Position numbers and translations under genes: made by a program. This document shows positions 31,507 to 32,596 of a DNA stretch of 64,000 nucleotides, in pieces (the first letter of the stretch is position 1; the number at the start of each line of letters is the position of its first letter). The notes beneath the pieces were generated by a model. That model made no database searches and had not been told where the DNA came from. It was given only the letters and a program-made list of their open reading frames with translations. The DNA comes from Acinetobacter pollinis (lineage in GTDB: Bacteria > Pseudomonadota > Gammaproteobacteria > Pseudomonadales > Moraxellaceae): NCBI RefSeq assembly GCF_015627175.1, contig NZ_VTDQ01000005.1, forward strand, positions 1 to 64,000. Reading direction: 5' to 3'.

Positions 31507-31583
<77 letters not shown>

Positions 31584-31663: not shown

Positions 31664-31740
<77 letters not shown>

Positions 31741-31801
31741 CCGACAACTTACTTTCTGGTTTAAAGTAAGCACCAAGTATTTAATTAACTTGATGGAGCG
31801 C

Positions 31802-31830
31802 ATTGTATAGAGGAAAATAGATTTAGGCAA
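31802..31830 (-). promoter_or_regulatory. Promoter of the initiator tRNA operon
   Basis: On the minus strand, TTGCCT (31830-31825), a 17-bp spacer and TACAAT (31807-31802) fit sigma-70. A GC-rich discriminator (GCGCTCC) follows, as in stringently controlled stable-RNA promoters. Predicted start is near 31795. Confidence 0.7.
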
Positions 31831-31917
31831 GAGGTTTTCTTTATTAAAAAAACAATGACTCATTTTTTAAACAAAGATATTTTTATTTACTTGAAAAAGA
31901 TCAAATGCTCTCATTAA

Positions 31918-31935
31918 TGTAAGCTTTAACTTACA
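31918..31935. promoter_or_regulatory. GacA-box palindrome upstream of candidate small RNA
   Basis: TGTAAGCTTTAACTTACA matches the known GacA upstream activating sequence TGTAAG-N6-CTTACA exactly. Its centre is about 58 bp upstream of the predicted RNA start near 31985, a suitable activator position. The TATACT -10 at 31973-31978 has no good -35, as expected for an activated promoter. Confidence 0.8.
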
Positions 31936-31984
31936 AGGGAAGCTGTTAAAACGTATATATTCAATGAATGAATATACTTATTAT

Positions 31985-32125
31985 GGCTTTATCAACAACG
32001 GAAAGTGCTTATAGGATTTAAGCAAGTACGGACACAAGTTGAATAGATCACGGAAAGATCGACACAATGGATGTAAATGAGGATGTTACTCTATAAACCC
32101 GAGCTTGCTCGGGTTTGTGTTTTTT
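31985..32125 (+). ncRNA. Candidate RsmX/Y/Z (CsrB-type) RNA that titrates CsrA/RsmA
   Basis: A predicted RNA of about 140 nt without an ORF. Six A(N)GGA motifs occur at 31998, 32013, 32028, 32050, 32067 and 32080. The last two sit in ACAATGGATGT and GAGGATGT, close to the CsrA SELEX consensus. Two are in hairpin loops: TGCTTA-TAGGATT-TAAGCA (32006-32024) and GATC-ACGGAAA-GATC (32046-32060). A perfect GacA box lies upstream and a strong terminator ends it. This combination is the established hallmark of GacA-dependent CsrA-sequestering RNAs. The 5' end is estimated from the TATACT -10 element. Family membership is inference; no alignment was run. Confidence 0.75.
32095..32125 (+). terminator. 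Intrinsic terminator of the candidate small RNA
   Basis: AAACCCGAGC (32095-32104), loop TT and GCTCGGGTTT (32107-32116) form a 10-bp stem followed by GTGTTTTTT. The T-run is on the plus strand, so it belongs to the RNA and not mainly to the convergent pilin gene, whose stop is at 32129. Confidence 0.88.
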
Positions 32126-32128
32126 ATA

Positions 32129-32596
32129 TTATAAATCTTGCGAACACATATTCGGACGATAACTTACATCTACATCTGTTCGACAAGTCCACGTTCCACT
32201 GTTTGCATCTCTAAACCAAACAAGCCTTCTACCACTTAATCGATTACTTACCCGATTGCCAAAAACTCCAATAATTTGCTGATTTGCAACCAATGGAAAG
32301 GTAATTTGTGGTGACCCTGTATTGGGAGCACTACTTTGTCCATCTGGACGGTTTCCTGTAAGCAAGTTAGAAGCAATAATAGGTAAATGACAGCCTTCAT
32401 TACTTTCTCCCAATTCTAACTGACCCTCTAAAAGACAAATATCGACCGGGTTCTTGAGGCTTGCGGTTTCTTGTATAACTGTATTAATCTGTGTCTTCGC
32501 AATATAAATTTGATATTGCACGAGTGCAATTGCAGATATAATTGCAACAATTGCTATGGCAATTAGAATTTCAATAAGTGTAAACCCTTTTTGCAT
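32129..32596 (-). CDS. Type IV pilin paralogue, downstream of pilA
   Basis: A 155-aa type IVa pilin-like protein. It begins [20 protein letters not shown]: a 3-residue leader before the PilD cleavage/methylation site, Glu5 and the hydrophobic N-terminal helix. The ATG at 32596 is chosen over an upstream frame because the leader starts there and GGGGTGAG precedes it. The C-terminal Cys pair TWTCRTDVDVSYRPNMC mirrors that of PilA, and CLLEGQLELG...GCHLP...ASNLLTGN mirrors its middle part, so the two are duplicates. Its helix is less canonical (SAIALVQYQIYIAKTQ). A strong terminator lies directly between pilA and its ribosome-binding site. It may be a minor pilin, an alternative major pilin or a recombination donor. 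Confidence 0.85.
   Translation of the reverse strand: MQKGFTLIEILIAIAIVAIISAIALVQYQIYIAKTQINTVIQETASLKNPVDICLLEGQLELGESNEGCHLPIIASNLLTGNRPDGQSSAPNTGSPQITFPLVANQQIIGVFGNRVSNRLSGRRLVWFRDANSGTWTCRTDVDVSYRPNMCSQDL

Follow-up and report, generated by a model that had tools for sequence, protein, structure and literature searches.

A candidate GacA-activated, CsrA-sequestering small RNA in a relative of Acinetobacter nectaris, and its putative longer paralogue at the asd locus

Introduction

Small RNAs of the CsrB/Rsm class are GGA-rich, non-coding and terminated, lie behind an upstream box, are transcribed in a GacA-dependent manner, bind and titrate CsrA, and need CsrA, GacA and GacS. RsmX/RsmZ and CsrB/CsrC are defined by a GacA/UvrY-type box, repeated A(N)GGA motifs in loops and an intrinsic terminator, and rsm genes are driven by boxes of the form TGTAAG-N6-CTTACA. 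The rsmX box of P. brassicacearum is printed as TATAGCGAAACGCTTACA (PMC7911923).

For Acinetobacter, the accessible text of a 2025 study of A. baylyi states that loss of GacA/GacS permits growth via a foreign pathway and that csrA is required; it proposes CsrA-sequestering RNAs downstream of GacA/GacS and, in that text, names none (PMC12455638). A truncated csrA reduces stationary-phase competence in A. baylyi according to a further paper, where a figure legend citing Kulkarni mentions a 'CsrB-like small RNA' (PMC12442408). RsmA/CsrA-regulating sRNAs were predicted for Acinetobacter ADP1 by Kulkarni 2006, as cited in Table 2 of PMC5568370; the predictions lie at ACIAD0018/0019 and ACIAD2750/2751. 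Excerpts of two other papers hold a bracketed RsmX/Y/Z entry for A. baumannii (PMC7366521) and a report that the promoter of Aar, a base-pairing sRNA, is 1.4-fold lower in an A. baumannii gacS deletion (PMC11472050). In the accessible text of the open-access literature searched, we came across no experiment that tests an Acinetobacter Csr/Rsm RNA; Kulkarni 2006, Oda 2022, Farrow 2020 and Singh 2025 (on CsrA in A. baumannii) could contain one.

Here, we analyze a 64,000-nt stretch of DNA (the window) from a 2.75-Mb Acinetobacter genome close to A. nectaris, whose RimP shares 88% identity with A. nectaris RimP, the top among named matches. Comparison with related genomes makes it very probable that positions 31991-32125 encode a non-coding RNA of the CsrB/RsmY kind, activated by GacA and sequestering CsrA, and that this RNA is the short paralogue of one found at the asd locus. 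A preliminary description of the window had proposed a GacA-activated, CsrA-sequestering RNA with a link to type IV pili. Its core is well supported by GGA hairpins with compensatory changes, a near-fixed box spacing in the genus and the presence of CsrA, GacA and a GacS-like kinase, but the pilus link, drawn from position, is not supported.

The locus and its features

The RNA region is intergenic and lies near rimP. On one side are two minus-strand tRNA genes, the nearer ending at 31740; on the other is a minus-strand pilin gene, and the two minus-strand genes beyond the RNA are both pilins. The tRNA genes are tandem and near-identical (31510-31583 and 31667-31740; assigned to Met by eye), and 69 of 70 named rimP loci contain their anticodon-arm sequence, the number of copies varying between loci. 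The features of the region are:

31918..31935, palindromic: GacA-type box TGTAAG-CTTTAA-CTTACA, a perfect palindrome whose start lies 73 nt ahead of the conserved A (31991)
31979..31984, plus strand: likely -10 element TATTAT, at offset -12 to -7 as in relatives; TATACT at 31973-31978 is the alternative
31991..32125, plus strand: predicted small RNA, ~126 nt counted through the terminator stem and ~135 nt with the T-tail, with a putative 5' end
31992..32042, plus strand: closing helix P1, TCAAC (31992-31996) with GTTGA (32038-32042), carrying a compensatory A-U for G-C relative to its relatives
32006..32024, plus strand: hairpin 2, TGCTTA-TAGGATT-TAAGCA, GGA in the loop, double changes in 4 of 6 pairs across seven sequences
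32046..32060, plus strand: hairpin 4, GATC-ACGGAAA-GATC, GGA in the loop, present in the minimum-energy fold
32067..32089, plus strand: 3' sites ATGGATGT and GAGGATGT, from motif reading
32073-32089, plus strand: possible weak hairpin GTAA/TTAC around the second 3' site, not the minimum-energy choice, with longer equivalents in relatives
32092..32125, plus strand: intrinsic terminator, 12 pairs with a T-run, stem invariant in seven sequences
32129-32131, minus strand: pilin stop codon, convergent with the RNA, 4 nt from the terminator end

The six A(N)GGA motifs in 86 nt reported in the preliminary description are all present, with GGA at 32000, 32014, 32030, 32052, 32069 and 32081 (span 31998-32083), and every GGA of the RNA (6/6) stands in an A(N)GGA context. 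This is the single stretch with six such motifs within 105 nt on either strand of the 64-kb window, and when the 600 nt around it were shuffled 2000 times by dinucleotides and sampled at every third position, 3 shuffles attained six. The near-consensus GGATGT contexts described at 32064-32074 and 32079-32086 likewise occur there, as does the intrinsic terminator, AAACCCGAGCTTGCTCGGGTTT (32095-32116) followed by a T-run; it is the sole terminator-like match in 31750-32300, where shuffles gave 0.2 each. A single plus-strand ORF of at least 20 aa overlaps the RNA (32077-32214), and it reads through this terminator. The RNA thus shares with the CsrB/Rsm class the lack of a coding frame, an intrinsic terminator, and several A(N)GGA motifs, two of them in loops of the minimum-energy fold, on covarying stems; the GacA/UvrY-type box upstream, another class feature, is present as a predicted binding site.

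Direct reading confirmed the perfect TGTAAG-N6-CTTACA palindrome at 31918-31935, a sequence found at two places in the window genome. The other copy (C81:9057-9074), which sits upstream of a BLUF-like gene (named by eye), was rejected as a GacA site: complementary A/T runs on either side extend it into a longer palindrome that resembles a terminator hairpin. TATACT, originally proposed as the -10 element, does exist at 31973-31978, but relatives favour TATTAT at 31979-31984. We took the latter as the likely -10 because A. nectaris (TATTAT) and most of the long forms described below (TATTCT, TAATCT or similar) match at that offset. A simple promoter scan found no plus-strand sigma-70 site.

Both hairpins said to present GGA in their loops (32006-32024 and 32046-32060) are part of the minimum-energy fold. 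Across the window RNA and its six short-form relatives (see below), hairpin 2 appears in 5 of 7 minimum-energy folds, and a hairpin at the hairpin-4 site in 7 of 7, with a loop of just UGG in A. nectaris; in the A. brisouii group the hairpin-4 stem reads TTGTC/GACAA, TGTC/GACA or GTTGT/ACGAC. P1 forms in four of the seven and is missing from the window RNA's own fold, while its equivalent in the long form shows double changes. The folding energy of the window RNA is modestly below that of shuffled sequences (z -1.78; 10 of 200 shuffles equally good), which is weak support for a structured RNA.

The Rfam covariance-model search suggested earlier gave a divided answer: at gathering thresholds the window contains tRNAs alone, and below them lies a full-length match to RsmY (RF00195). 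Under permissive settings this best match covers model positions 1-121 with 27.4 bits (E 9.4e-5 in 551 nt), and over the whole window genome the RNA has an E of 1.1e-4, the next matches standing at 0.1. Only the top match is informative, because 13 of 14 control genomes also gave weak RsmY matches at E up to 10, none of them over the cut-off. Since 27.4 bits falls short of the gathering score of 57, the Rfam rule does not make this RsmY; judged by its predicted features, the RNA is of the CsrB/RsmY kind and not RsmY itself. No RsmX/RsmZ or CsrB/CsrC match reached gathering thresholds in the window, and weaker matches to relatives of RsmY are possible, the permissive matches being the best per clan. 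Seven related loci (four long-form, two short-form and one of a third kind) gave tRNAs in two and nothing else at gathering thresholds.

The short form in related genomes

A blast search with the 251-nt region against 119 genomes of the genus returned one long match besides itself, at 72% identity in genome G103, and matches of only 20-35 nt in seven other genomes. The RNA of G103 and its flanks are as in A. nectaris (L013). We further sampled the rimP locus, using 70 of the 80 loci returned (L013-L082; one titled Moraxellaceae bacterium, the remainder Acinetobacter) and excluding 10 from other taxa. The short form occurs in A. nectaris, in two A. brisouii strains and in ANC 4633, MB5 and ANC 3789; the last five genomes are referred to as the A. 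brisouii group, by sequence likeness and not from a tree. A covariance model, R1, was built from these six relatives and the window RNA, and over the 70 loci it exceeded 27 bits in those six only; five loci (L020, L022, L055, L062 and L066) have <350 nt upstream of rimP and are unable to show the RNA. Full-length R1 matches occur in 7 of 175 Acinetobacter genomes, all from the window, A. nectaris and A. brisouii-group lineages. The window RNA scores 113.9 bits, full length at the rimP/tRNA-Met locus; the window is in the training set, and R1 scores are high by construction because the model was built from the same sequences. The short form is absent from the tRNA-Met neighbourhood of L015, L040, L045 and L064, chosen for a possible nectar or bee link.

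The preliminary description had proposed a search of related genomes for the box plus GGA cluster, and both were found in short-form relatives and in long forms. It also held that loss of these elements in close relatives would refute the proposal; the GGA motifs are kept, but the box is degenerate in A. nectaris. Among the six named short-form relatives the box is exact in four and has one mismatch in L036, and in A. nectaris, the closest named relative, TGTGCATATTTACCCACA stands in its place at the same position.

The short-form consensus structure, like that of the long form, was drawn from the same alignment as its covariation counts: 7 of its 23 pairs changed on both sides, 96.9% of cells are paired, and 0 of 500 shuffles were equal. 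Further pair types are less striking (attained by 28 of 500 shuffles), and slid controls pair at 21-40%. Stem 2 illustrates the pattern, with TGCTTA/TAAGCA in the window, GTACA/TGTAC in A. nectaris and GAACAA/TTGTTC in ANC 4633 and MB5, the GGA being kept.

Weak R1 matches with 0-1 GGA each (L109, L112-L114, L117-L122, L124-L129) were dropped. Another three (L107, L110 and L111, in G172, G001 and G090) are GGA-rich (5-8 GGA) and lack a TGTAAG box, and may represent a third family; they sit between exonuclease-like and arsenate-reductase-like genes (named by eye), and all three carry AGTAAACA-N2-TGTTTACT at -94. GGA-rich windows also occur elsewhere in L069 and L077.

A longer form at the asd locus

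Other weak R1 matches (among them L108, L116 and L123) revealed longer RNAs at other loci, which have the short form's box at an unchanged distance. The pattern TGTANG-N6-CTTACA-N50..62-TCNRCA-N1..4-GGA occurs in 80 of 175 Acinetobacter genomes (six via the short form, the window's included) and its reversed control in none. A second model, R2, was built from 21 long forms (alignment A2; box and short forms excluded, the end of L154 set by eye). R2 matched 164 of the 175 genomes at E up to 0.05 and 163 at E up to 0.001; at the latter threshold, 172 of 348 Moraxellaceae genomes matched, namely the 163 Acinetobacter and nine in four other genera. Five own-genome RsmY or R2 matches (L094, L095, L202, L209, L215) were dropped after partial inspection of weak matches, being terminators or coding-like stretches.

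The long form measures 159-172 nt, with 6-10 GGA in its first 170 nt, and all 21 aligned sequences carry a GGA in their terminator hairpin. The box is present with at most two mismatches in 35 of 35 long-form loci (35 genomes: the 30 best R2 matches and five long forms of the A. brisouii group), starting at -74 in 34 and at -75 in one, and none of 1050 upstream control windows had fewer than three mismatches. The box pattern had also led to 22 of these loci; it had not led to the other 13 (L172, L177, L179, L180, L182, L183, L190, L191, L197-L201). Double changes affect 10 of 22 pairs (0 of 500 shuffles equal), and further pair types were attained by 13 of 500 shuffles. Of 65 loci tested, 62 (51 genomes) hold a long form, and each of these includes one or more genes from the asd neighbourhood: asd itself in 59, and in the others a gene identified by eye as exo/endonuclease-phosphatase-like, glycosyltransferase or acyltransferase. 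The loci outside this neighbourhood are three short forms, L139, L140 and L164.

The long form also has a nearly invariant stretch, GCACAACCTCAT, which lies just 5' of the terminator and in none of the predicted helices and contains an anti-Shine-Dalgarno-like CCTC (L135-L163, A2). It is absent from the short form. This stretch may serve as a seed for base pairing, in which case the long form would have two functions.

The window RNA is not at the asd locus; it lies near rimP, flanked by tRNA genes on one side and a pilin gene on the other. With filters off, R2 nevertheless aligns to 31991-32115 from its first to its last position, at 21.0 bits (E 1.5e-6 in 701 nt, or roughly 0.006 when scaled by length to the whole genome), a score that is partly due to the terminator (whose reverse strand alone gives 8.5) and compares with 95-174 bits for the long forms of the A. 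brisouii group and of the best-scoring genomes; run on the whole genome with the usual filters, R2 misses the window RNA. Both forms are present in five A. brisouii-group genomes, scoring 95-106 bits (long) and 24-30 bits (short) with R2. Because these genomes carry both forms and R2 matches the window RNA end to end, the two are most simply regarded as paralogues on sequence grounds.

In the window genome and G103, R2 has no match above 15 bits elsewhere, and only the short form was found. As judged by this model search, the long form has most simply been lost, or has diverged beyond detection, in their lineage. It is a tentative thought, and a rather doubtful one, that the lineage containing the window species and A. 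nectaris lost the ancestral Rsm RNA of the asd locus, the shorter paralogue beside the tRNA-Met/pilin region became the sole Csr RNA, the box decayed in A. nectaris, and the Gac-Csr circuit is being rewired. The window genome and G103 are among 11 of 175 genomes with no R2 match at E up to 0.05, filters on. Nine genomes (G020, G122, G099, G046, G026, G142, G102, G032, G111) have a GacA match and neither RNA form in filtered searches, in which weak matches can be lost; they may hold diverged RNAs or have a different Gac output.

The Gac-Csr circuit and the pilin genes

All three proteins needed by the CsrB/Rsm class are encoded in the window genome: one CsrA of 83 aa, one strong match to GacA, 50% identical to E. 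coli UvrY and with receiver and GerE domains, and a GacS-like kinase of 939 aa with HisKA, HATPase, receiver (REC) and Hpt domains, HAMP lying just below the cut-off. A GacA match was found in 24 of 24 genomes tested, four of the alignments crossing a stop codon; the kinase was looked for in two genomes. The kinase gene adjoins a cysteine-synthase-like gene (read by eye).

The position of the RNA had been taken as a hint of a connection between Gac/Rsm signalling and type IV pili, which we reject as an argument from adjacency. The long form lies at asd or its neighbours in 62 of 62 loci. A convergent pilin start motif occurs within 2 kb in 6 of 7 short-form loci (window included), at varying distance and with other genes intervening in L026, L029 and L032, and no pilin start lies within 4.1 kb in L030 (A. 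brisouii). Neither window pilin has a GGA within 110 nt upstream of its ATG, the second having one at -118. Pilin proximity alone is no evidence of regulation; a pilus link through CsrA is possible.

Discussion

From sequence we infer the transcription of the RNA and its start, the binding of GacA and CsrA, and the sequestration. We propose that phosphorylated GacA would bind the box at 31918-31935 and activate a promoter that has a -10 element and no good -35. The resulting RNA would offer six A(N)GGA sites, of which two stand in clear hairpin loops, and could bind several CsrA dimers, freeing CsrA-controlled mRNAs. It would be a short paralogue of the longer asd-locus RNA of most Acinetobacter, and is the only one of the two found in the window genome.

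Three other explanations were weighed. The RNA might sequester CsrA under mainly non-GacA control, from a growth-phase or constitutive promoter, the palindrome binding another regulator or being vestigial. GacA binding is a prediction here, and A. nectaris keeps its GGA sites beside a degenerate box; however, the palindrome is perfect in the window, the box stands at -74/-75 in 35 of 35 long forms, and 24 of 24 genomes tested have a GacA match, so that we consider such control improbable. More improbable still is an Hfq-type base-pairing RNA with incidental GGA motifs: all six GGA have the A(N)GGA context, and stems vary while GGA persists in the loop. The intrinsic terminator with its U-tail would suit such an RNA, as would the nearly invariant GCACAACCTCAT before the terminator, a feature of the long form and not of the window RNA. 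That the region serves the pilin gene as a cis element, antisense or terminator, with no separate RNA, we find scarcely credible, even though 4 nt separate the end of the terminator from the convergent pilin stop and it could act both ways. The RNA is on the strand opposite to the pilins and has its own box; in A. brisouii (L030) it exists with no pilin next to it, and genes intervene in L026, L029 and L032. GacA-activated sequestration of CsrA is thus our preferred reading.

The analysis provides explicit candidates for CsrA-sequestering RNAs in Acinetobacter, a long form in 164 of 175 genomes and a short paralogue in 7 of 175, neither of which reached an Rfam cut-off in the loci searched (the window, four long-form and two short-form). 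With these candidates, deletion offers a direct test of the part missing from the middle of a global regulatory circuit, also in a laboratory model such as A. baylyi. Compared with the published Acinetobacter predictions, genus and proposed function are the same, those being predictions only; the long form may be what Kulkarni 2006 predicted.

The short form of the window and the long form are alike in a nearly equal box spacing (-73 versus -74/-75), an ATCRRCA start, P1 and GGA hairpins; the long form differs in being longer, with more GGA, GCACAACCTCAT, a GGA in the terminator hairpin and its asd locus. With RsmX/RsmZ and CsrB/CsrC, the window RNA shares an upstream GacA/UvrY-type box, repeated A(N)GGA in loops and an intrinsic terminator. 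It resembles RsmY of Pseudomonas in its GGA-bearing hairpin loops, its GGACAC and GGATGT elements and its terminator, but lies at another locus and has a closing helix, P1, of its own.
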